Assembly: GCA_027451445.1 (NCBI GenBank)
Contig: DAIDJG010000420.1
Coordinates: 1-64,000 of the forward strand
DNA length: 64,000 nt
Direction: 5' to 3'
Origin: Singulisphaera sp.
GTDB lineage: Bacteria > Planctomycetota > Planctomycetia > Isosphaerales > Isosphaeraceae
Below are positions 24,998-61,903 of the stretch, piece by piece. The notes under the pieces are model-generated. The model worked only from the letters and a program-made list of their open reading frames with translations. It was not told the DNA's origin and did no database searches. Position 1 is the stretch's first letter; the number at the start of each line of letters is the position of its first letter. Made by a program: the position numbers and the translations under genes.

Positions 24998-25045
<48 letters not shown>

Positions 25046-25279: not shown

Positions 25280-25352
25280 AGCGCGGTAGAGCAGTTGGCG
25301 GCTCGCTGGGCTCATAACCCGGAGGTCGGCGGTTCGAGTCCGCCCCGCGTCA
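25280..25352 (+). tRNA. Phage-borne initiator-like tRNA-Met (CAT)
   Basis: Cloverleaf: AGCGCGG TA GAGC AGTTGGCG GCTC G CTGGG CTCATAA CCCGG AGGTC GGCGG TTCGAGT CCGCC CCGCGTC A. Unpaired 1:72, A11:T24, GGG/CCC anticodon stem base. Confidence 0.85.
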
Positions 25353-25547
25353 CTCTTTTTCGCACGCTTAAAACCTTTTCGAACCGTGAACCCGGCGCGA
25401 CGGATTCTGTTGGCGAAGAACCCTGATGTGTTGCTCTTGCCTATTGCGTTGAATAGCCAACAGCGAGCGATGCCACCCCGATGTCTGCATGAGGTTCTCG
25501 CAAAGTTAATCGCAGGTCTTTAGCCGTTCGAAAGTTACGCGGCTGCC

Positions 25548-25655
25548 CTTTCCGCGACCTCACCGTCGCGGCCCCATTGAAGCTCGCCGCCAAAGCGATC
25601 GTCCCGGCCGCAATAGAGACTTTCCGCGACCTCACCGTCGCGGCCCCATTGAAGC
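25548..25655 (+). CRISPR. Mini-CRISPR array: two identical 36-bp repeats, one 36-bp spacer, no cas genes in window
   Basis: Repeat CTTTCCGCGACCTCACCGTCGCGGCCCCATTGAAGC at 25548-25583 and 25620-25655; internal CCGCGAC/GTCGCGG stem; 3' ATTGAAGC resembles the ATTGAAAC crRNA handle. Spacer TCGCCGCCAAAGCGATCGTCCCGGCCGCAATAGAGA. Confidence 0.85.
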
Positions 25656-25664
25656 CACACACAT

Positions 25665-25700
25665 CGCCCGGTTCCTCGCAAGAGGGCCGGGCGGTGTTGT
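25665..25700 (+). terminator. Hairpin terminator just after the CRISPR array
   Basis: CGCCCGG-TT-CCTC-GCAA-GAGG-G-CCGGGCG then gtgttgtt. Confidence 0.6.
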
Positions 25701-26212
25701 TATGATCGGCCGCCCTTCAACCCATCGTCCGGCGGGTCGTATTTCGTTCCGCGCTCGACGGGTCGCTTCGCAAGGTCCGCTTCTGTTGGGTGCCCGATCA
25801 GCTTCGCTTTCCCGCTTCGGTCACACCCCAAACAGTACGTCCCGGCCGAGAGCTGTTTCAGGTGCTGACAGAACCGGCACACCCACTCGCCGAGGGCCTC
25901 GTCCCACAACCATAGGGACTCGGCCCCGGACCATGTCGGCGACTGACCGAGGAACAAGTCGAATCCGAGCCGAGGGCCTTCCCACGGATTACCGGGGCCG
26001 CCCCAGATTTCCTCTTGGGCGGCGGCGATCGACTCCCTCGAGTCCGGGTTGTGCAGGAGTCGCTCCTTGAGCTTCGGCTCGCGAGCGGTAAGCGCCTTGA
26101 GTACCCGCGGACTCACCTCGATGGCCCAACGATCCTCCTCGACTTCAACCCAGCGAGCGCCCTGGTCGTCGTCGACCCACTTCACGAACCGACGTTGGAC
26201 GTGCATTTTCAT
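25700..26212 (-). CDS. Zinc-ribbon hypothetical protein (phage cargo)
   Basis: CRFCQHLKQLSAGTYCLGC; start MKMHVQRRFVKWVDDDQGARWVEVEEDRWAIEV. Confidence 0.65.
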   Translation of the reverse strand: MKMHVQRRFVKWVDDDQGARWVEVEEDRWAIEVSPRVLKALTAREPKLKERLLHNPDSRESIAAAQEEIWGGPGNPWEGPRLGFDLFLGQSPTWSGAESLWLWDEALGEWVCRFCQHLKQLSAGTYCLGCDRSGKAKLIGHPTEADLAKRPVERGTKYDPPDDGLKGGRS

Positions 26213-31430: not shown

Positions 31431-31853
31431 ATGGCAAAACGCGGTGCCAAACCGAAGAAAACCCGAAAACCGAAGCTCCCGCCGGCGGTGTGGCGCTGCC
31501 CGGCACACCTCGACGGGGTGGCGGCGGACGAATACACGCGGATCGTTGGCGTGCTGCGGGAAGCGGGTGTGCTCGATCGGACGACACCGCGGCTGGTCGA
31601 GCTCTATGCGATCAATTACGCGCTGTTGCGTCAGGCGTACGTCGTCATCGAACGCGACGGGCCGACGGTCGAGAGCGACCGGGGGAACGTGGCGGAGCAT
31701 CCGGCCATCAAGACGCTCAACGCGGCCACGATTCGGATTCGAGGGTTGCTCAACGACTTCGGCCTCTCGCCGGCGTCGGCCAAGCTCACGGCGCCGACGG
31801 AGAAGTCGGGCGACAAGAACCCCTGGGAAGGCATCTTGAACGTTGTCGGGTAA
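31431..31853 (+). CDS. Terminase small subunit, P27 family
   Basis: LVELYAINYALLRQAYVVIERDGPTVESDRGNVAEHPAIKTLNAATIRIRGLLNDFGLSPASAKL, directly upstream of TerL. Confidence 0.85.
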   Translation: MAKRGAKPKKTRKPKLPPAVWRCPAHLDGVAADEYTRIVGVLREAGVLDRTTPRLVELYAINYALLRQAYVVIERDGPTVESDRGNVAEHPAIKTLNAATIRIRGLLNDFGLSPASAKLTAPTEKSGDKNPWEGILNVVG

Positions 31854-33405
31854 GGCAGCCAAAACGCGGAAGGTCGACCCGGGCGGTCAGGCGGTCAGGT
31901 TCATTAACAACCTCTCGCACACCGGGGATTACATCGGTCAGAGATTCCGACTGCGGGACTGGCAAGAGACCTTCGTGCGCAAACTGTTCGGCACGCTCCG
32001 GCCGGACGGCGGGCGACAGTATCGGAAAGGGTTCCTCGCCCTTCCCCGAAAGCAGGGCAAGACGGAGCTCGTCGCGGCGATCCTGCTGTATCTGATGCTG
32101 GGTACGGGACGCAAGGAACAACGGATCTACTCGGCGTCGGGGGACCGCAATCAAGCGAGCCTGATCTTCGGCGCCGCGGCGTCGATGGTCGAGAACGACC
32201 CGCAACTCTCTCAGGTCTGCACCGTCTACCACGGTTACAAGAAGATCACTTGCGATGGGATGGGGTCGACCTATCAGGCCCTCTCGAGTGAAGCCAAGCT
32301 CAAGCACGGCCTTGGCCCGTCGGCGGTGCTGTTTGACGAGGTTCACGTCCTGCCGAACCGTCAACTGCACGACATCCTCACGACGGGGTTCGGTGCGCGG
32401 CGCGATCCGTTGACGCTGTACATCTCGACGGCGGGGTTCGATCGGGCGTCACTCTGTTACGAGCTCTGGCAGCATGCGCGGCACGTTCGGGACGGCATCG
32501 TCACTGACCCGACGTTCCTGGCCACGCTCTTCGAGGCGGATCCCGAAGACGACTGGACGAGCGAAGAGACCTGGTTCAAGGCAATGCCGGCTCTGGGCGA
32601 TTTCTGCTCGCTGGAGTTCATCCGGGAAGAGTTCCATAAGGCGAAGACTCAACCGTCCTTCGAGAACACGTTCAAGCAGTTGTACTTGAACCTCTGGACC
32701 GAGCAAGCAACGCGGTGGCTGCAAACCGAGCGGTGGATGGCGTGCGCGGGCCTCGAGGAGACCGAGCTCGACGGGCGCGAGTGCTATGCCGGTCTCGACC
32801 TGGGCGTCACTCGGGACATGGCGGCACTGGCGCTGATCTTCGCGAACGACCTGGGCGGGTTCGACGTGGCGGTGCGCTACTGGGTGCCGATCGACGGAAT
32901 CTGGAAGGAAGAGCCGCGCAACTTCGAACTGTATCGCGACTGGCACAACCGCGGGTTCCTGGAGTTCACGCCCGGGGAAGCCACCGACTTCGACCAGATC
33001 GAGAACGACATTGTCGAGGTTAACCGGCGGTGGGCGATCCGGTCGCTGTTCGCCGATCGGGCCTACGCGTCGCACATGCTCTCCCGGCTGTTCAACTATC
33101 ACGAGCTGCCGGTCCAGGGGATTCCGCAAGGGCCAGTGACGCTCAACGAGGCGATGGTCAAGGTCGAGACCATGCTCCTGAATCAAACCATCCGGCACAC
33201 CGGGAACCCGGTGCTGAACTGGAACGTCGCGAACGCCAACGTCGAGCGCAACAAGACGGGGCTGATGTACCTCAACAAGTCGGGGACGACGTTCCGAATC
33301 GACGGCGTTGCGGCACTGGTGAACGCGGTTACCGCGGCGATCGCGGACGGGGCGACGGATGCGGGGCCGTCTGTGTACGACACGCGCGGAGTCTTTGTCC
33401 TTTAA
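31843..33405 (+). CDS. Terminase large subunit
   Basis: FLALPRKQGKTELVAAILLYLML (Walker A-like), VLFDEVHV (Walker B), CYAGLDLGVTRDMAAL nuclease motif. Confidence 0.95.
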   Translation: MSGKAAKTRKVDPGGQAVRFINNLSHTGDYIGQRFRLRDWQETFVRKLFGTLRPDGGRQYRKGFLALPRKQGKTELVAAILLYLMLGTGRKEQRIYSASGDRNQASLIFGAAASMVENDPQLSQVCTVYHGYKKITCDGMGSTYQALSSEAKLKHGLGPSAVLFDEVHVLPNRQLHDILTTGFGARRDPLTLYISTAGFDRASLCYELWQHARHVRDGIVTDPTFLATLFEADPEDDWTSEETWFKAMPALGDFCSLEFIREEFHKAKTQPSFENTFKQLYLNLWTEQATRWLQTERWMACAGLEETELDGRECYAGLDLGVTRDMAALALIFANDLGGFDVAVRYWVPIDGIWKEEPRNFELYRDWHNRGFLEFTPGEATDFDQIENDIVEVNRRWAIRSLFADRAYASHMLSRLFNYHELPVQGIPQGPVTLNEAMVKVETMLLNQTIRHTGNPVLNWNVANANVERNKTGLMYLNKSGTTFRIDGVAALVNAVTAAIADGATDAGPSVYDTRGVFVL

Positions 33406-33429
33406 CCCTTCGAAGGGAGAGGTTTGTTC

Positions 33430-33969
33430 ATGGCAACCACGGGTTCCAACTTCGTTTCGCTCCTGGCCGCGACGCTCGTCAATACGACCGTCCAGGCGGT
33501 GAGTACGCTCGTCGCGTACATGGCGGCGGACGCGGCGCGCGTCGCTCAGAATGGCGGCGGGAAGGTGGTCGACAAGGTCACCATCGACTTCAGTAACGAC
33601 GGGTTCGCCAAGCACGGTGGGGCGAACTATCAGCTCACTGGTACCACGGCTCAGACCATCGACCTGACGGACCTGACGGCGAATACGCCAACGTCATCCG
33701 CGGGCGACACCACGTTCGCCAAGTGGAACACGCTGGTCTTCAATAACCTCGACGCGGCGGACGTCACGATCGCGCCCGGCGGCTCGAACCCCGCGCGGCT
33801 GCTCCTCAGCGGTACAGGGCCAACGCTCACGATTCCGGCCAACACGTCGATTGCCCTTTCGTCGCTGGCGGGCCTGGTGATCGACAGCACACACAAGATC
33901 ATCACGGTCACCCCTACGTCGGGCGGCAACACGGCCGGCAACTTCTTCATCGGGGTCGCCGGTAGCTAA
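33430..33969 (+). CDS. Putative head-associated structural protein
   Basis: Position between TerL and portal; beta-rich sequence. Confidence 0.45.
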   Translation: MATTGSNFVSLLAATLVNTTVQAVSTLVAYMAADAARVAQNGGGKVVDKVTIDFSNDGFAKHGGANYQLTGTTAQTIDLTDLTANTPTSSAGDTTFAKWNTLVFNNLDAADVTIAPGGSNPARLLLSGTGPTLTIPANTSIALSSLAGLVIDSTHKIITVTPTSGGNTAGNFFIGVAGS

Positions 33970-35375
33970 TGCCGGACCTGATTCCCGCTCGAGCTCGCGC
34001 GGCTCGACGCCTCGGCCTGGGGCGCGAGTCGCGCGATATCAACGGCCAGTCGTGGCAGGGGTTCGCGCTCAACGCGCCGGTACTGTCCGGCGTGCTGGTC
34101 ACACCCCAAACGGCTCTGACCCTGACGGCGGTGTATTGCGCGATCAATATCATCGCGAGCGACGTGGCGAACCTGCCGCGGTACCTGTACCGGCGCCAGA
34201 AGTCGGGCGGCAAGGTGATCGACACGTCGAAGGAAGTGAACGACCTGGTGCACTTCGCACCGAATGGCGAAATGCCAGCGTTCTTCCACTACCAGGCGGC
34301 CATGGGCCACGTGCTGGGGTGGGGAAACAGCTACTCGGAGATCAAACGGGACTACGGCGGCAACCCAACTGGGTTGTACCTCCTCCACCCGGGCACGACG
34401 AAGCCGAAGCGGACCGAGAAATCGAAGGCCCTGTACTACGAAGACGAGGCGACGGGCAAGACGTTCGCGCCCGAGAACATCCTCCATATCCGAGGGCTCG
34501 GGTTCGATGGGCTGAAGGGGTATTCCCCCGTCACACTCGCCCGTCAGGCCGTGGGCCTGGGGATCGCGGCCGAGGAGTTCGGGGCGGCGCTCTTCGGCAA
34601 CGGAGCGATTCCCAAGGGCCTGCTCAAGACGCCGAAGCGGCTCACGGAAACGGCGGCCAAGAACCTTCGCGAGTCGTTCGAACGGGTTCACCAGGGGACC
34701 AAGGGCGCGCACCGGGTCGCGGTACTCGAGGAGGGCGCGGACTGGGTCGACACGCAAATCAACCCGGACGACGCGCAGTTCCTCGCGACCCGGCAATTCC
34801 AGGTGCTGGAAGTCTGCCGGATCTTCAACCTGCCCCCGCACAAGCTCGCCGACTACTCGAAGACGAACTATTCCACGGTCGAACAGGCAAACATTGCCTA
34901 CCTGACGAACACGCTGTCGATCTGGCTGGCGGCGATCGAGGCCGAGAGCAACTTCAAGCTCCTCACCGCGAAGGATCGGAAGAAATGGGTCGTCGAGCAC
35001 GACGTCAGCCGACTCCTCCGCGCGGCGATCGACACGCGGATCCGCTACTTCGAGTCGCGGTACCGGATGGGCTCGATCACGCCGAATGAGATCCGCCTCA
35101 AGGAAGGCGAGAACCCGTTCCCGCCGGAGCTCGGTGGCGATCGCCCGATGGTCCAGGCGCAGATGGTTCCGCTCGAGCAGGCGGAGCAAGCCACCGACGA
35201 GACCGTGAAACCGGTCGAGGTCGACGCCAACGCCGATGTGGACGCGGGGCCGGTCGACCCTGCCACGCTCCCAAAAGACCCTCCCGACGACCAGGTCGAG
35301 GTTGAAGACGATGAGCCAGAACCCAAGCCAAAGAAGCGACGCGGGCGGCGCTACCCCCGCACCCTCGAAGACTGA
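33969..35375 (+). CDS. Portal protein (HK97 family)
   Basis: LTAVYCAINIIASDVANLPRYLYRR, GLGIAAEEFGAALFGNGAIPKGLL, SKTNYSTVEQANIAYLTNTLSIWLAAIE. Confidence 0.94.
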   Translation: MPDLIPARARAARRLGLGRESRDINGQSWQGFALNAPVLSGVLVTPQTALTLTAVYCAINIIASDVANLPRYLYRRQKSGGKVIDTSKEVNDLVHFAPNGEMPAFFHYQAAMGHVLGWGNSYSEIKRDYGGNPTGLYLLHPGTTKPKRTEKSKALYYEDEATGKTFAPENILHIRGLGFDGLKGYSPVTLARQAVGLGIAAEEFGAALFGNGAIPKGLLKTPKRLTETAAKNLRESFERVHQGTKGAHRVAVLEEGADWVDTQINPDDAQFLATRQFQVLEVCRIFNLPPHKLADYSKTNYSTVEQANIAYLTNTLSIWLAAIEAESNFKLLTAKDRKKWVVEHDVSRLLRAAIDTRIRYFESRYRMGSITPNEIRLKEGENPFPPELGGDRPMVQAQMVPLEQAEQATDETVKPVEVDANADVDAGPVDPATLPKDPPDDQVEVEDDEPEPKPKKRRGRRYPRTLED

Positions 35376-35943
35376 AGTCCGCTCCTTCCTGGGGACCGTC
35401 GAGCTCCGGGCCGCGGCCGATGGCAAGGGTCCGGGAGTTGTCGTCGGCATGGCGGCGGTCTTCAACAGCTACTCGGAAGACCTCGGGTACTTCCGGGAGA
35501 AGATCAACCCCGGAGCGTTCGCCGATGTGCTGCTGCGGGACGACGTGCGGGCACTGTTCAACCACGACGTCAACCAGCTCCTCGGCCGGAACAAGGCCGG
35601 CACGCTACGTATGGTCGAGACGGACGACGGGCTTGCCATTGAGGTCGATCTTCCCGACGCCACGGTCGGGCGCGATGTCGCGGAGTACCTCCGCCGGCGG
35701 GACGTAACCGGGATGTCGTTCAGCTTCGACATGGAAGACGGAATCGAGGAGTGGGATTACTCCGGGAACCTCCCGTCGCGAACGCTCGTCAAGGTCGGGC
35801 GGCTGTACGACGTCGGGCCCGTCACTTTCCCGGCCTACACGAACACAAGCGCGGCACTGCGAAGCCTGGAGATTCACCGGCCCAAGCCTGCGCCTCCCGA
35901 CAACTCTCTTTGGCTGGCGCGCGCTGGCCTGCTTTCGCTCTGA
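35311..35943 (+). CDS. HK97 family prohead protease
   Basis: VGMAAVFNSYSEDLGYFREKINPGAFADVL...ALFNHDVNQLLGRNKAGTLRM...VTGMSFSFDM. Confidence 0.94.
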   Translation: MSQNPSQRSDAGGATPAPSKTEVRSFLGTVELRAAADGKGPGVVVGMAAVFNSYSEDLGYFREKINPGAFADVLLRDDVRALFNHDVNQLLGRNKAGTLRMVETDDGLAIEVDLPDATVGRDVAEYLRRRDVTGMSFSFDMEDGIEEWDYSGNLPSRTLVKVGRLYDVGPVTFPAYTNTSAALRSLEIHRPKPAPPDNSLWLARAGLLSL

Positions 35944-35968
35944 TTTCTCGAACCGAGGATGAAACGCA

Positions 35969-37348
35969 ATGGCACTTCATGACCTGATGCAGCGGCGCGC
36001 CGACCTGGCCAGAGAGGCGCGGAAGCTCGTCGAGACGGCCGACAAGGAAGGGCGGTCACTGACCGAGGGGGAACGGAATCGCTTCCAGGCGATCGAGGAG
36101 GAAGTCCGCGGTAAGGACGGTAAGGGTGGGCTGGATGCGGAGATCGAGACTCGCCAGAAGATCAGCGCGTTTAGCGACGCGGTGACCGAGGGGCGGTCGA
36201 GTGATCCGTTGCCTCACGATCCGAGTCAGACGAAACACCGGTATTCGCTTCTGAAGGCGATCCGTCAGGTTGCGGATCGGATGACAGGGAACGGCGGCGG
36301 CCTGGATGGGCTCGAACTCGAGGTGAGCCAGGAACTCATCAAGCGGCGCGGTTCGCCGCTGAAGCGCGGGGCGAGTTTCTGCATGCCGACGGACCTCCCG
36401 ATCAATATGGGGGTCGCGGCGCGGTTCGCTCAGCAGTGGGGGCGGAACCTCGACGGCACACAGAAACGAACGTTCGACACCACGGCCGGCGCGGGCGCGA
36501 TCCCCACGATCCTGGATACGAACTACATCGAGTTGCTGCGCAACCGGATGGTCGTTGACGAGGCGGGGGCGACGTTGCTGAGCGAGATGCAGGGGCTGTT
36601 TGCGATCCCGCGACGGACGGCAGCCTCGACGTTGTACTGGGTGGCGGAAGGGGCGTCGATCACCGGCAGTAACACGACGGTCGATCAGGTGCCGTTCACG
36701 CCTCGAACCGCGGGGGCCATGACGGACATCTCCCGGCGGTTGACCGAGCAGATCAACACCGACTCCGAGACGTTCGTCCGGCGCGACCTGTCGGCGGTCG
36801 TCGCGCGTGGCGTCGACCTGGCGGCACTTAACGGGACCGGCCAGAATAACCAGCCTCTCGGAGTCGCTCAGAATCCGAACGTCGGTATCGTCGCGCTCGG
36901 GACGAACGGCGGCCCGCCGACTTGGGACATGGTCGTCAACCTCGAGACGAACGTCGCGACGGCAAACGCGGACCTCGGGCGCTTGAGCTACATCACCAAT
37001 GCCAAGGGTCGTGGGATCCTGAAGCGGACGGCGAAGATCGGCTCAACGTTCCCGATTTACCTCTGGGACACACAGAACCCGGATACGCCGCTCAACGGCT
37101 ACCCTTGTCACGTTACGAACCAGTTGCCATCGAATCTTTCCAAGGGTACCTCGGGTGCGGTGTGCTCTCCCGTCCTTTACGGGAACTGGGAGGATCTCGT
37201 CATCGCAATGTGGAGCGGACAGGACGTCATCGTCGACCCCTTCACCGGGAGCGCGTCGGGGACGCTGCGGCTGGTGATGTTGCAGGACATCGACATCAAC
37301 CTTCGTCACCCCGAGTCGTTCCAGAAGTGCGTCGACATGACCACGTGA
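35969..37348 (+). CDS. Major capsid protein (HK97 fold)
   Basis: N-terminal coiled scaffold then ...RTAASTLYWVAEGASITGSNTTVDQVPFTPRTAGAMTDISRRLTEQ...DLAALNGTGQNNQPLGV. Confidence 0.93.
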   Translation: MALHDLMQRRADLAREARKLVETADKEGRSLTEGERNRFQAIEEEVRGKDGKGGLDAEIETRQKISAFSDAVTEGRSSDPLPHDPSQTKHRYSLLKAIRQVADRMTGNGGGLDGLELEVSQELIKRRGSPLKRGASFCMPTDLPINMGVAARFAQQWGRNLDGTQKRTFDTTAGAGAIPTILDTNYIELLRNRMVVDEAGATLLSEMQGLFAIPRRTAASTLYWVAEGASITGSNTTVDQVPFTPRTAGAMTDISRRLTEQINTDSETFVRRDLSAVVARGVDLAALNGTGQNNQPLGVAQNPNVGIVALGTNGGPPTWDMVVNLETNVATANADLGRLSYITNAKGRGILKRTAKIGSTFPIYLWDTQNPDTPLNGYPCHVTNQLPSNLSKGTSGAVCSPVLYGNWEDLVIAMWSGQDVIVDPFTGSASGTLRLVMLQDIDINLRHPESFQKCVDMTT

Positions 37349-37411
37349 TAAGCGCGGCGGGCAGGGACGCCCGGTTCTGATTTCGACTTGCACCCTTTCG
37401 AGGTCAAATCA

Positions 37412-37621
37412 ATGCAGTATGTGAAGCTCTTGAACGACACCTTCGTCGGCAACCGTACGCGTTCCGCCGGCGAAGTGCTGCCGTTCGACGACAAGGTCGC
37501 GGATATGTACGTGCGGGGCAAGCATGGGGTCATAGTGCCGGCCCCGATGGCTCCGGTTGAACAAGCCACCGTTGCGCCGGGGCCTGAGTCGGCAACCGGG
37601 CGACGGCAGCGCCCAGTTTGA
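37412..37621 (+). CDS. Small hypothetical phage protein
   Basis: MQYVKLLNDTFVGNRTRSAGEVLPFDDKVADMYVRGKHGVIVP. Confidence 0.5.
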   Translation: MQYVKLLNDTFVGNRTRSAGEVLPFDDKVADMYVRGKHGVIVPAPMAPVEQATVAPGPESATGRRQRPV

Positions 37622-37634
37622 GGGACCTTCTCGT

Positions 37635-37934
37635 ATGCGACGTCTCAAGATGCTCTGCACGGGTCACACCGAGGTCAAGAACCCGGACCCGACCAAACCG
37701 TCCCAAATCACGCACCACCGGCCGGGCGATGTGCTCACGTTCGAGGACGCGCGCGAAGCGGACGCCTTGCGGCTGTGTGAGCTCGGCGTGGCGATCGACG
37801 TCACGGCCGAGACGGAACCCGCTCCGGCCGCGGCTGCCAGTCCGGCGGCTCCTCCGAGCTCGTCTGCTCCGCCGTCACCCGTGCCGGCCCCTCGACCCGC
37901 TCCTCCGCTTACGCCTGCTCCGCCGGCAAGCTAA
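37635..37934 (+). CDS. Hypothetical phage protein with Ala/Pro-rich tail
   Basis: MRRLKMLCTGHTEVKNPDPTKPSQITHHRPGDVLTFEDAREADALRLCELG. Confidence 0.5.
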   Translation: MRRLKMLCTGHTEVKNPDPTKPSQITHHRPGDVLTFEDAREADALRLCELGVAIDVTAETEPAPAAAASPAAPPSSSAPPSPVPAPRPAPPLTPAPPAS

Positions 37935-37937
37935 CCG

Positions 37938-38567
37938 ATGCAGCGCGATGCTCTCGTAATTGGTCCCTCGGTCGAGCCGGTGACCCTGGCGGACGCCAAG
38001 CTCTGGATCCGCCAGGACATCGCCGACGACGATGCGATTGTGACCAGTCTGATCACGGCGGCGCGGCGGAAGGTCGAGGCCGAACTCCGCCAGTCGCTCA
38101 TCACCCAGACGTGGGATCTGTTCCTCGAGGGGTTCCCCTCGGGTGGCGGGTACTACGATCGCAATGTTCGGCAGTCTGGAATGAGCCTTCAGTGGCTGCC
38201 GACAGCCTCGACGCCGATCTACATCCCGCGGCCGCCGCTACAGTCGATCGTCTGGGTTAACTACGTCGACACCTCGGGCAACACGCAAACGGTCGATCCG
38301 AGCGTCTATCGCGTGGGTTCCGGGGCGCCGGCGCGGATTCAGCCGAACTATGGGAACGTCTGGCCGGTCAACCGGCCGATTATCGACGCTGTCAACATCC
38401 GCTACGTTTCCGGGTACGGCAACGATGGCACATCGGTTTCCGAGAACATCAAGACCGCGATCAAGATGATTCTCAACCTCTGCTACGACAACCGCGACGG
38501 GGCCTTCGAGCTGCCGACGACAGTGCAATGGTTGCTCGGGGCGGACGATCACGGCTCCTATGCCTAA
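37938..38567 (+). CDS. Head-tail connector protein (HK97 gp6-like)
   Basis: EPVTLADAKLWIRQDIADDDAIVTSLITAARRKVEAELRQSLITQTWDLFL. Confidence 0.88.
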   Translation: MQRDALVIGPSVEPVTLADAKLWIRQDIADDDAIVTSLITAARRKVEAELRQSLITQTWDLFLEGFPSGGGYYDRNVRQSGMSLQWLPTASTPIYIPRPPLQSIVWVNYVDTSGNTQTVDPSVYRVGSGAPARIQPNYGNVWPVNRPIIDAVNIRYVSGYGNDGTSVSENIKTAIKMILNLCYDNRDGAFELPTTVQWLLGADDHGSYA

Positions 38568-38916
38568 CGTCTTCACGCTCAAGATCGACGTCGGGCAATT
38601 GCGTCATCGGGTGGCGATTCAGCAGCCGGCCTTGACCGATAGCGCATACGGCCAGCCGAAACCGACGTGGAACACGGTCGCAACACAGTGGGCGCGAATC
38701 ACGTCCCTGAGCGGCCAAGAGCTCGTCAATGCACAGCAGCACCATGCCGAGACAACGCACGCGGTCGAGATGCGGTTCAACCCGGACATCAGCATCGACC
38801 CGACGTATCGGCTTCAATACGGGACTCGCAACTTCAACGCGCTCTCTGTGATCGACGTTCAGGAGCGACGTATCAAGACCGTCGTTCTCTGCGTGGAGCA
38901 GGTTGACCCGACATGA
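38560..38916 (+). CDS. Head-tail adaptor / head closure protein
   Basis: IDVGQLRHRVAIQQPALTDSAYGQPKPTWNTVATQWARITSLSGQELVNAQQ. Confidence 0.88.
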   Translation: MPNVFTLKIDVGQLRHRVAIQQPALTDSAYGQPKPTWNTVATQWARITSLSGQELVNAQQHHAETTHAVEMRFNPDISIDPTYRLQYGTRNFNALSVIDVQERRIKTVVLCVEQVDPT

Positions 38917-39302
38917 GTGTTCCCATCATCTACAGTTGGACGGAAAGCACCCGCTCGAGCAACGGCGGAAACGTCTCGGCCTCCTGGCAAGACATCGGCA
39001 CGATCGAGGTCGTTCCCGAGGTCCCGGTCGCGGCCGGCGCGTCGAACGCGACGACGGGGATTGCGTTCAACGGAACGAACCTCCAGGCCATCGAGCTCAT
39101 CTCGACGCAGAATTGCACGCTCTACGTCAACGCTCCCAGCGGCGGAAGTCCGTTCGCTACGATCAACCTCAAGGCTGGGATCCCCTACACCTGGTCGGCG
39201 TCCAAGGCGCAGATTTCCAACCCGCTCAACACCAACGTCACCCAGATCTACGTGACGGCGACGTCGGCCTGCATCATCAGCGGTCGGATTCTGACTACCT
39301 GA
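38913..39302 (+). CDS. Hypothetical phage structural protein
   Basis: 4-nt overlap with upstream gene; conserved late-operon position. Confidence 0.5.
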   Translation: MSVPIIYSWTESTRSSNGGNVSASWQDIGTIEVVPEVPVAAGASNATTGIAFNGTNLQAIELISTQNCTLYVNAPSGGSPFATINLKAGIPYTWSASKAQISNPLNTNVTQIYVTATSACIISGRILTT

Positions 39303-39303
39303 C

Positions 39304-39729
39304 ATGCCGACTGACTTTGAGACCGCAATCAACACAGCGCTGCGGGCGAACGCGACGCTTACGGGGCTGGTCGGGACAAAGATCCGGCCGACGAACCCCG
39401 CGGAAAAGGATCTTCCGCCGTCGCTCACGTTCAGCGTTTCCAAGAAAGCGCGCGAACAGTCCCTCGACGGCCCGATCGGGGTTTGCCGTTGCCGTTTGTC
39501 CCTTGTGGCGCGGTCGCTCGATTACGACGTCTGCAAGGCCATCAAGGAAGCCCTCCGTAACATGCTCGACGGGTTCGTCGGGGACCTGAGTGGTGTTGCC
39601 ATCGTCGAGGCGAGCATGGCCGATGAGTCTGACGTTTACGAGCAACCGGCGGACGGCTCCGATCAGGGGACGTTCGAGGTTCCTTGTGAGTTCTTTGTTC
39701 GTTTCCGTGAACCTCTACCAGTGAGGTAA
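39304..39729 (+). CDS. Tail completion protein (DUF3168-like)
   Basis: DFETAINTALRANATLTGLVGTKIRPTNPAEKDLPPSLTFSV...; position before major tail protein. Confidence 0.75.
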   Translation: MPTDFETAINTALRANATLTGLVGTKIRPTNPAEKDLPPSLTFSVSKKAREQSLDGPIGVCRCRLSLVARSLDYDVCKAIKEALRNMLDGFVGDLSGVAIVEASMADESDVYEQPADGSDQGTFEVPCEFFVRFREPLPVR

Positions 39730-51234: not shown

Positions 51235-51325
51235 TCGAAATGTCTTCGCGGTGTCATCGCGAATATTCAGACCTTTTCACACTCTTGGTGTGCGCGGAGA
51301 TTCCGCGCGCCGGAAAGGAACGTCC

Positions 51326-51985
51326 GTGACGAAGTTCACGATCAAGGATCGTTGGAACGGCTCGACGCTCTTTGAGCGCGAAGCGAACTCCCTCAAGGAG
51401 TTGTTGATCGCGCTGGTTTCGGAGAGGACCAACCTCATCAGAGCCAACCTCATCAGAGCCAACCTCAGCGGGGCCGACCTCAGCGGGGCCGACCTCATCA
51501 GAGCCAACCTCAGCGGGGCCGACCTCAGCGGGACCAACCTCAGCGGGGCCAACCTCAGCGGGGCCGACCTCAGCGGGACCAACCTCATCAGAGCCAACCT
51601 CAGCGGGGCCGACCTCAGCGGGACCGACCTCAGCGGGACCGACCTCAGCGGGGCCGACTGGGCCGGAACGCGGGACGACTTTGTCTCCGTGTTGAACTCC
51701 TGCCCTGCCGAGGTCTCGGGTCTGAGAACCGCGATCGTCGAGGGCAGGATCGACGGCTCGACCTACACCGGAGCTTGCGCCTGTCTCGTCGGGACGATCG
51801 CCAACGTTCGCGGAGAAAGCCCCTACTCCCTCCCCGATTTGGCGCCGAACAATAACCGCCCTGCCGAGCGTTTCTTTCTGGGAATTCGCATCGGCGACAC
51901 GCCCGAGTCTAACCCGCTTTCGAAGCTCGCCGTCGAGTGGATCGACGCGTGGAGCGCCGAACGAACAGTGGCCTCTGTCGGCTAA
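51326..51985 (+). CDS. Pentapeptide-repeat protein
   Basis: 16 consecutive pentapeptides [20 protein letters not shown] ... ADWAG; GTG start with AAGGA RBS. Confidence 0.9.
51428..51667 (+). repeat. 15-bp tandem repeat tract encoding the pentapeptides
   Basis: 16 units of variants AACCTCAGCGGGGCC / GACCTCAGCGGGACC / AACCTCATCAGAGCC. Confidence 0.92.
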
Positions 51986-58636: not shown

Positions 58637-59060
58637 GGCGCTTGTTAAACGCTGTTGCACCGAGGCCGAGGTCCTCGTGCAGGTCCTCGAGGCATGCCGC
58701 ATGTACGGGATTGACGTCGACCGCCAGAACACGGGCGCCGGCGTCAACCCGTCCGGTCAGAAGGTGCGGTTTGGCCAGCCCGGAAATAGCGATGTCTCGG
58801 GCATGCTCCCGGATGGCCGGAAGCTGGACATCGAGGTCAAGCGCGAGGACTTCGATCCGTCGAGGCTCAGAGGGAAAAAGCTCGAGCACTTCAAACGTCA
58901 GCTCGCGCGGCTCCGTCGTACGAACGAGCAAGGCGGCGTCGGATTTTGGACCGACAACGTCGACCTGGTCTTCAAGGTGTTGCCGATCGTTCTCGCTGGC
59001 GGTCGTGTTGAGGAGACCGAGTTGGGGGAGCTGCACGTCGTTCCCAGGAGTCAAATGTGA
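58629..59060 (+). CDS. VRR-NUC domain nuclease
   Basis: QNTGAGVNPSGQKVRFGQPGNSDVSGMLPDGRKLDIEVKREDF...QLARLRRTNEQGGVGFWTDNVD. Confidence 0.88.
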   Translation: MTEALVKRCCTEAEVLVQVLEACRMYGIDVDRQNTGAGVNPSGQKVRFGQPGNSDVSGMLPDGRKLDIEVKREDFDPSRLRGKKLEHFKRQLARLRRTNEQGGVGFWTDNVDLVFKVLPIVLAGGRVEETELGELHVVPRSQM

Positions 59061-59908
59061 GTTCTGCACCCTCGAGGCCTGTTCTTCGGTACCACGGTGG
59101 CAAGTGGCGTCTTGCCCGTTGGATCATCAGCCACTTTCCAAAGCATCGGACCTACGTCGAGCCTTACTGCGGCGCGGCATCCGTGCTGATGCAAAAACCG
59201 AGGTGCTATTCCGAGGTGATCAACGACCTCGATGGGGACATTACCAATCTCTTCTCGATCCTTCGCGATCCGGCTCGAGCCCAGAACCTTCAAACGGCTT
59301 TGGAGTTGACCCCGTTCAGTCGTTCGGAGTTTCGCCTGGCCTATCAGCCAACCGATGATCCGCTCGAGCAGGCCCGTCGGCTGGTGGTTCGATCGTTTCA
59401 GGGATTTGGATCCGCGGCTCACAATCCGCGCCATGGAACCTCGTTTCGCTTCAACGCAAATCGTCGCGGTACGACTCCGGCTCTCGACTGGTCGCGCTAC
59501 CCTGGTTGCATTCCGGCGTTCGTCGAACGCATGCAGGGCGTCATCGTCGAAAACCTTCCCGCGTTGGCTGTCATTCGTCAACACCAGCGACCGGATACGC
59601 TCTTCTACGTGGATCCTCCCTATCCTCGATCGACGCGGAGGATGCTGGTCGAGAGCGGTAAGCGTGGTTACGTGCACGAAATGACGGACGATCAACATCG
59701 CGAGCTCGCCTACGTCCTCCGAGGCCTGAAGGCAATGGTCGTTATTTCTGGTTACGCGTGCCCGTTGTACGACAGGGAGCTTTACCCGGACTGGATCCGG
59801 GTGGAGCGCCGTTCCCTGGCGGACAAATCGCAGCCAAGGATCGAGTGTCTTTGGCTGTCGCCGAGTACCTCTCGCCGGATCCAGCCGTCGCTCTTCAAGG
59901 AGGTGTGA
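59057..59908 (+). CDS. dam: DNA adenine methylase (D12 class)
   Basis: LRYHGGKWRLARWIISHFPKHRTYVEPYCGAASVLMQKP...LFYVDPPYP. Confidence 0.93.
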   Translation: MSSAPSRPVLRYHGGKWRLARWIISHFPKHRTYVEPYCGAASVLMQKPRCYSEVINDLDGDITNLFSILRDPARAQNLQTALELTPFSRSEFRLAYQPTDDPLEQARRLVVRSFQGFGSAAHNPRHGTSFRFNANRRGTTPALDWSRYPGCIPAFVERMQGVIVENLPALAVIRQHQRPDTLFYVDPPYPRSTRRMLVESGKRGYVHEMTDDQHRELAYVLRGLKAMVVISGYACPLYDRELYPDWIRVERRSLADKSQPRIECLWLSPSTSRRIQPSLFKEV

Positions 59909-60055: not shown

Positions 60056-60379
60056 GTGAGTTCGCCCGCGGTCACACCACTGATCTTGCAACCTGGTGAA
60101 GCTGCAGCTCGGCTCGGCCTTACCCGCGCCGACCTGGTCGCGATCATCCGCCGGCGGCAATACGGCTTCACCGAGATCAAGCCCGGGGGTAAGCCCGGCG
60201 ATCGCGGCCCAAACCGGTGGGGTCTCACCGAGGCCCAGATCGCGGCGATCGTCCGCGGGCAGGCCAAGGTGCTGCCCGATCCGGCGGGCTCCGACAAGCC
60301 GGACCGGATCCCGGCGTCGACGAACCTTTCGCCAGACGGGAAATCCCGTTTACCGCGTATTGGCCGGGCGAGGATGTGA
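60056..60379 (+). CDS. HTH/excisionase-like small protein
   Basis: LQPGEAAARLGLTRADLVAIIRRRQYGFTEIKPGGKPGDRGPNRWGLTEAQIAAIVRG. Confidence 0.55.
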   Translation: MSSPAVTPLILQPGEAAARLGLTRADLVAIIRRRQYGFTEIKPGGKPGDRGPNRWGLTEAQIAAIVRGQAKVLPDPAGSDKPDRIPASTNLSPDGKSRLPRIGRARM

Positions 60380-61639
60380 ACGCACCCGGCCTGCGACAAG
60401 CTTCTCGGCCGCTGTCTGGAGGTGTGAGTCCAGCAAGTGGCCGTAGTGCTTGTAGATCATCTCTGGGCTCGTTCCTGTCAGCTCGGCCACGGTCGGCACG
60501 TCGACGCCCAACATCAAGAGCGACGATATCGCCGTGTGGCGCCAGCGGTAATTCACCAGCTTTTCGGCCCCTTGGTCACTGACCGCGACTCCCGCGAACC
60601 ATGCCTCTCGACCTGTCACCTTCTCCTTTCGCTTGATCCTCTCCCGTAACTCACCCTGGATCCCGATCAACTCTCGGCGAACGCGCAGAGTCGTCTTGGA
60701 CAGCACCGAACCACTTTCCCACGGTTCATCCGCGCCTTCTCCACCACGGCCGGCGCGGTGAATGAAGACCCATTCCTGGCTCGGCGGTGAAGCTGCGAGT
60801 CGTCGGAGCGCTCGAGTCAAGGAGGGCGTGAAGTAGATCGTTCGGGGCTTGCGCGTTTTTCGGCCTGCCTTCCACCGGTCATAGGGGATCACGCCTTTCG
60901 CGCACACGTGCCCGGCCGAAGTCGTCCACCCGTCCCAACGAATGTCGATCCACTTCAGCCGGCAGAGCTCCATCGGACGCGCGCCGGTCCGAATCAAGAC
61001 TCTCTGGAGTAGCAGGGTGTACCGATCGTAGCGGCCTCGAATCGACTTTCGATCGAACCTTCGTAGCCAGTGAGCGACAAAGGCCGCGGCTTCCTTCCTT
61101 TCGGCAAAGCGGGCCGGCGACTGGGGAACGCTCGGCAGGCGGAACCCCTGAGTCGGGTTGCTCGGAATCAGCTTCGCGGGCCGCACTGCCCAGTTCAGCG
61201 CCGCACGGGCCGAGGCGCAGACGTTCCGCGCGTACGTCGGCGAATAGGTTCCCTCGAGACGTTGCCCGAAAGCCGTCATGTCGTCTGGCTCGAGGCCTGC
61301 AACCGCTCGGGCGCCGAGGGCTCGACTGAAGATCCCAAGGTGAATCTGTTTGTTGGCGTATTCTGAGTTCGCCAGCTTCCCTTCGTTGCGAAGCCGCTCG
61401 GCATGTGCGAGGTAATGTTCGCAGACCATCGCGATCGTAGCCTCGCCGTCTGCGCAAGGGCCGGCCGCCTGGCGTCTGATCTCGCCCTCCATCCAATCCC
61501 AGGCCTTCCCCTCGTCCGCCTTGCCGATCTCGGCCGGGGCGAAGACTTCCCGGGCCCGTCCGTTTTCGTCGCGCTCCCCGATGTTCGCATACCACCTTTG
61601 TCGCTTGTCGTGCCATCGCGGCTTCGCTTGTCGAGGCAT
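60350..61639 (-). CDS. int: Tyrosine-type site-specific integrase
   Basis: RVLIRTGARPMELCRLKWIDIRWD; YRWRHTAISSLLMLGVDVPTVAELTGTSPEMIYKHYGH. Confidence 0.95.
   Translation of the reverse strand: MPRQAKPRWHDKRQRWYANIGERDENGRAREVFAPAEIGKADEGKAWDWMEGEIRRQAAGPCADGEATIAMVCEHYLAHAERLRNEGKLANSEYANKQIHLGIFSRALGARAVAGLEPDDMTAFGQRLEGTYSPTYARNVCASARAALNWAVRPAKLIPSNPTQGFRLPSVPQSPARFAERKEAAAFVAHWLRRFDRKSIRGRYDRYTLLLQRVLIRTGARPMELCRLKWIDIRWDGWTTSAGHVCAKGVIPYDRWKAGRKTRKPRTIYFTPSLTRALRRLAASPPSQEWVFIHRAGRGGEGADEPWESGSVLSKTTLRVRRELIGIQGELRERIKRKEKVTGREAWFAGVAVSDQGAEKLVNYRWRHTAISSLLMLGVDVPTVAELTGTSPEMIYKHYGHLLDSHLQTAAEKLVAGRVRSHPRPANTR

Positions 61640-61827: not shown

Positions 61828-61903
<76 letters not shown>

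Follow-up and report, generated by a model that had tools for sequence, protein, structure and literature searches.

A leader-bearing CRISPR mini-array assigned to subtype I-G in a prophage of Singulisphaera

The question raised by this locus is what a temperate phage without cas genes of its own could do with a CRISPR array reduced to two repeats and one spacer. The window, by which we mean the whole 64,000-nt stretch of Singulisphaera sp. contig DAIDJG010000420.1 that was analysed, contains two repeats of 36 nt each (25548-25583 and 25620-25655, + strand) that are 100% identical and enclose exactly 36 nt, the single spacer (25584-25619, + strand), as an earlier sequence-only reading had reported and direct comparison bore out. 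The repeat, CTTTCCGCGACCTCACCGTCGCGGCCCCATTGAAGC, folds into the 7-bp stem which that reading had described, capped by a loop of 6 nt (fold energy -12.3 kcal/mol, z -3.3). Past the hairpin come 4 nt and then the 8-nt ATTGAAGC handle, the 3' end of the repeat being CCCC-ATTGAAGC. The unit is closed by a strong hairpin with a GCAA loop (25656-25704, + strand; -31.5 kcal/mol, z -6.6). The sequence-only reading had called this hairpin a terminator; the structure itself is real, but it lacks a T-run tail and is therefore absent from the list produced by a terminator scan. It is likely the transcript end of the unit. A promoter search gave no sigma-70-like match. A 73-aa open reading frame that runs across the array (25441-25662, - strand) was rejected as a gene, as it is a translation of the repeats.

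The array lies about 0.5 kb from attL inside a prophage that the sequence-only reading had described as att-bounded and that is confirmed by its boundaries and gene content. An identical 48-bp direct repeat is found at 24998-25045 (attL, a copy of the 3' part of a tRNA-Arg) and at 61828-61875, the latter within the intact tRNA-Arg on the attR side (61829-61903, - strand, ARAGORN), which is adjoined by the tyrosine integrase of the prophage (60350-61639, - strand; PHROG 1, E=6e-37; Pfam Phage_integrase, E=2e-9). Between these ends lie packaging, head and connector genes for the small and large terminase subunits, portal, protease, major capsid protein and adaptors (31431-39729, + strand, PHROGs), together with genes for a tape-measure protein, an Erf recombinase and a replication-initiator-like protein, and a prophage tRNA-Met is located between attL and the array (25280-25353, + strand, ARAGORN). 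The prophage also encodes a D12-class adenine methyltransferase (59057-59908) and a pentapeptide-repeat protein (51251-51985) that shows a 15-bp tandem structure, and a second prophage-like terminase, 33% identical, is found elsewhere in the same genome (G000:C227:29505-30977). The absence of cas genes from the window was confirmed for type I-G by tblastn with five cas proteins, and the locus thus has the make-up of a virus-borne mini-array, in which one or two spacers reside on a viral genome that has no cas genes.

The repeat belongs to a family that is linked to cas4/1 and cas8g/csb2 loci (PADLOC models Cas1g, Cas2g, Cas8g, Cas56g, Cas7g and Cas3g). Its 5' end, 3' arm and ATTGAAGC handle match those of the cas-linked type I-G arrays on another contig of its own genome (C486, repeat CTTTCCGCGCTCAGACGAGCGCGGCCCCATTGAAGC) and in a genome of the same genus (G009), with 29/36 and 33/36 positions identical, respectively, and the differences lie mostly inside the hairpin, where they are compensated. 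The sequence-only reading had reckoned with the possibility that no cas-associated array would share this repeat family, and these two arrays do so. The same framework is found in further arrays of the host genome, on C269 and C373 and in degenerate form on C200, as well as in G009 and further members of the family, among which G011 alone has 358 repeat copies within 3 mismatches. Such recurrence with compensated stems in arrays of the own genome and of relatives goes beyond chance. The stem of the prophage repeat itself is unlike that of every host array found. Within 3 mismatches the repeat occurs in its own genome at this site only, its exact 36-mer is absent from GTDB contigs, and its 32-mer is absent from IMG/VR. 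A scattered intergenic repeat with a constant spacer was also considered and set aside, as the unit occurs once in the genome and the other arrays have different spacers.

When 21 repeat variants taken from hosts and from viral contigs are compared, 96.4% of the stem cells are paired compared with 28-44% in slid controls, and double-sided changes occupy 32 cells versus 9.8 in shuffles. The variants were collected by a pattern that fixes the 3' arm, so the outer stem pairs carry little weight; most of the covariation is borne by the inner three pairs, which the pattern leaves unfixed. In both sequence and fold the repeat has the layout expected of type I-G arrays, with 4 nt separating the hairpin from an 8-nt 5' handle, and this is the cleavage geometry measured for Csb2 in a type I-G system (PMC9638904). 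Judged by these comparisons, the unit is a real CRISPR mini-array assignable to subtype I-G (formerly I-U), and its processing by host machinery is plausible. The proposal of a CRISPR mini-array of a host-compatible family is thereby strengthened, with a subtype and a leader now added to it.

That leader lies directly upstream of the first repeat and corresponds to the leader-proximal part of type I-G leaders, 55 nt in length (25493-25547, + strand), recognised by its identity to the leaders of C486 and G009, with a TCTCGCAA box at -52 and TGCC adjoining the repeat. By BLAST, leader and repeat together are 75% identical to C486 and 79% identical to G009 over 91 bp. When aligned without gaps, the 60 nt upstream of the array match both cas-linked leaders at 41/60 positions, a value that is reached at the array only in a scan over 127,880 window positions (mean 15.6). 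The TCTCGCAA box starts at -52 in all five leaders compared (those of the prophage, C486, G009, G011 and the viral contig L102), and, in the same register, the prophage leader agrees at 15 of the 17 positions that are invariant in the other four. A TTATGA stretch of the C486 and G009 leaders is TTACGC in the prophage. A chance repeat is ruled out by this leader homology together with the repeat family. The C486 and G009 leaders can be aligned with each other to about -175 and share a second similar stretch further up, whereas the homology of the prophage leader stops at -55; the phage therefore holds only the leader-proximal part beside the integration site. Retention of these 55 nt with loss of similarity further upstream looks, on the alignments, like selection on the functional part. 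No mini-arrays were seen in distantly related prophages of the family. With its 55-bp type I-G leader, the array in the prophage amounts to a minimal leader-repeat-spacer-repeat unit, in principle capable of spacer uptake.

Is the machinery that would serve such a unit present in the host? Genes for Cas2 and for a Cas4/1 fusion are found on contig C486; the fusion has Cas1g as its best PADLOC model and is 82% identical to the Cas4/1 of G009, where cas3g, cas8g, cas7g, cas5/6g, cas4/1 and an array stand in one row. In the assembled host, Cas8g and Cas5/6g were not found, and the Cas3g profile matched generic helicases only, two of which were examined and fit other helicase families better. C486 is a 4-kb contig in an assembly of 622 contigs, and because it ends inside cas2 the effector genes may fall in an assembly gap; they may also be truly missing from this host. 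Their absence from the assembly is the main weakness of an interference reading for this particular lysogen. Between cas2 and cas4/1, C486 also encodes a 176-aa protein resembling IS200-type transposases (L004:563-1093). In G011, one huge type I-G array region (G011:C2:3141461-3167461; L036, L037) has cas8g about 0.5 Mb away.

The spacer, at 36 nt, falls within the size range seen for host spacers (34-38). At up to 3 mismatches no protospacer was found, either in the genome that carries the array or in 399 genomes of the phylum, and comparison with phage and plasmid records gave no significant match; the comparison with phage and prophage sequences that the sequence-only reading had suggested thus brought nothing convincing. 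A search of IMG/VR with a 21-mer and two codon-wobble patterns was also negative, and the scores of the spacer against the family's related prophages, as against all other DNA compared, were at the level of shuffled spacers. Six matches to its first 20 nt in GTDB agree at 23-25 of 36 positions overall, diverge beyond the seed and are most likely due to chance. In the reverse direction, spacers of the host, of relatives and of viral contigs did not match this prophage (best 11 mismatches). Relatives of this phage are thinly sampled, the one IMG/VR contig found having a terminase that is 32% identical, and because phages like this one have barely been sampled the absence of a target match says little. 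A weak lead comes from one spacer of the G011 array (L037), ACTGGAGAGATGTTGTTGTGACAGCCGCCAAAGCGAT, which shares the 14-mer GCCGCCAAAGCGAT with the prophage spacer; of random 36-mers from the window, 0.1% reach an equally good match to the 191 spacers compared. The two spacers possibly have overlapping targets in one phage gene.

Since the array looks complete and the prophage has no cas genes of its own, it probably borrows the host CRISPR machinery against rival mobile DNA. The mechanism we propose starts from what the sequence shows, namely a temperate phage with a minimal type I-G unit made up of the 55-nt leader, two repeats, one spacer and the closing hairpin. The Cas4/1-Cas2 adaptation complex would have used the leader-repeat junction once, inserting the spacer and duplicating the repeat; we infer this route of spacer gain from three features, namely the leader, a spacer of standard length and the identity of the two repeats, the last of which fits one recent acquisition. 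Where a host has a type I-G effector, Csb2 (Cas5/6g) would then cut the transcript 4 nt past the hairpin to give a crRNA consisting of the 8-nt ATTGAAGC handle and the spacer, and the resulting Cascade would attack a competing mobile element, providing superinfection exclusion for both lysogen and prophage. Use of the array with host machinery is favoured by the presence of cas2 and cas4/1 in the host, while the 29/36 repeat identity, the effector genes not found in the assembly, the lack of a target match or a sigma-70-like promoter match, and the TTACGC reading in place of TTATGA weigh against it. We give a probability of roughly 0.55 to the reading as a whole, that is, spacer gain by Cas4/1-Cas2 at the leader-repeat junction together with a crRNA directed against a competitor in hosts that have the type I-G effector. 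The suggestion that a phage could in this way redirect host Cas proteins against competing phages had already been made in the sequence-only reading; the array of a host-compatible family behind it stands, and the redirection keeps the rank of a proposal, the searches having found neither a protospacer nor I-G effector genes in the assembled host.

The same observations can be read in other ways. The unit could be a passenger, a fragment of a host I-G array that was picked up by the phage and is functionless in this host, and the lack of effector genes in the assembly, of a target and of a promoter match, as well as a repeat unlike that of any host array, would all be in keeping with this. It is nevertheless a doubtful explanation, given that both repeats are perfect with hairpin and handle intact and that the leader-proximal 55 nt are conserved where upstream similarity is lost; the undecayed terminal repeat argues against an old relic.

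An RNA anti-CRISPR or decoy function, in which transcribed repeats with a non-targeting spacer would occupy host Csb2 and Cas7 and so blunt type I-G immunity against the phage, appears unlikely to us. Anti-CRISPR activity has been validated for RNAs that mimic repeats, and in the same study interference was also lowered by a crRNA without a target (PMC10651486); the prophage spacer has no known target, and solitary repeats of the same framework with compensated stems are present on several IMG/VR viral contigs. Those anti-CRISPRs (Racrs), however, are defined as solitary repeat units, and here two perfect repeats enclose a spacer of standard length behind an adaptation-type leader that a decoy would not need. 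No anti-CRISPR gene was recognised nearby in a search made without a dedicated Acr library.

The IMG/VR scan found this repeat framework on other viral contigs, in some as short arrays and in others as single repeats whose stems are intact, and on the examined parts of these contigs no type I-G cas genes were seen except at one end of L102, where the end of a cas4/1 gene lies beside the array. The contigs L051, L103, L106, L115/L119, L122 and L124, on which no type I-G cas genes were detected, bear solitary repeats of type I-G-like form whose stems are intact and compensated; these repeats are candidate RNA anti-CRISPRs directed at type I-G. Six viral contigs share a repeat unit that is nearly constant, CTCCTCTCCGCGGACTAGCCGCGGCCCCATTGAAGC (L054, L074, L082, L116, L141 and L080, the last being a stem variant), and in those inspected (L054, L080 and L116) a second, degenerate repeat lies one spacer length 3' of it. 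Short arrays were seen on L065, L075/L094, L083, L109, L110/L138 and L131, the last with a leader-like stretch upstream.

That a chromosomal host array merely appears to be inside the prophage is very improbable, for although the array is only about 0.5 kb from attL, and the G009 homologue of the left flank and the matching tRNA-Arg sit on different contigs so that an empty site is not demonstrable by synteny, the perfect 48-bp att pair places the array and the phage-side tRNA-Met inside the element and the intact tRNA-Arg and integrase stand at the opposite end.

Returning to the proposed borrowing of host machinery, virus-borne mini-arrays are already known, and what is new is a leader-bearing bacteriophage case of subtype I-G. 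The closest parallel is with the archaeal portogloboviruses SPV1 and SPV2 (Medvedeva 2019, PMC6858448), for whose leader-bearing mini-arrays superinfection exclusion was proposed and which have one or two spacers, no viral cas genes, a leader similar to host leaders and repeats of a host family. Repeat and leader of the prophage array are likewise similar, not identical, to those of host arrays, with framework and handle identical and the stem compensated. Unlike SPV1 and SPV2, it resides in a tailed bacterial prophage, is of subtype I-G and has a single spacer, a stem that differs from host arrays and no target found. The Clostridioides difficile prophage arrays (reviewed in PMC6079278) are also located in prophages of a CRISPR-Cas-bearing bacterium, with a proposed action against competing phages, but they are of subtype I-B, from a Firmicute and strongly expressed, whereas the present array is known from sequence. 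It shares with Racrs (PMC10651486) the phage-borne repeat mimicry without cas genes and differs from those solitary units in having a full repeat-spacer-repeat with a leader. With type I-G CRISPR-Cas systems (PMC9638904 for the effector, PMC10274657 for Cas4/1 adaptation) it has in common the 36-nt repeat, the 8-nt handle 4 nt past the hairpin and a host with the Cas4/1 fusion and Cas2; unlike in full systems, the array stands alone on the phage, and the search of this assembly yielded no effector genes.

The bacteriophage mini-arrays known at the time of PMC6858448 were reported without leaders, which left their route of spacer gain open, and a leader-bearing prophage array bears on that question. 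That the leader-proximal 55 nt were kept and homology was lost beyond them suggests that the spacer was acquired through the host adaptation complex, which makes phage spacer capture directly testable by the in vitro plasmid assay already in use for Cas4/1-Cas2. The prophage leader also gives the outline of a minimal I-G leader. We tentatively extend this to the idea that the 55-nt leader and repeat form an adaptation-competent spacer trap, into which host Cas4/1-Cas2 would write fragments of competing phages. If true, the immunity of the phage against its rivals would be heritable and open to updating, and would need no cas gene on the phage, the repeat used having a stem that has diverged from those of the host arrays.
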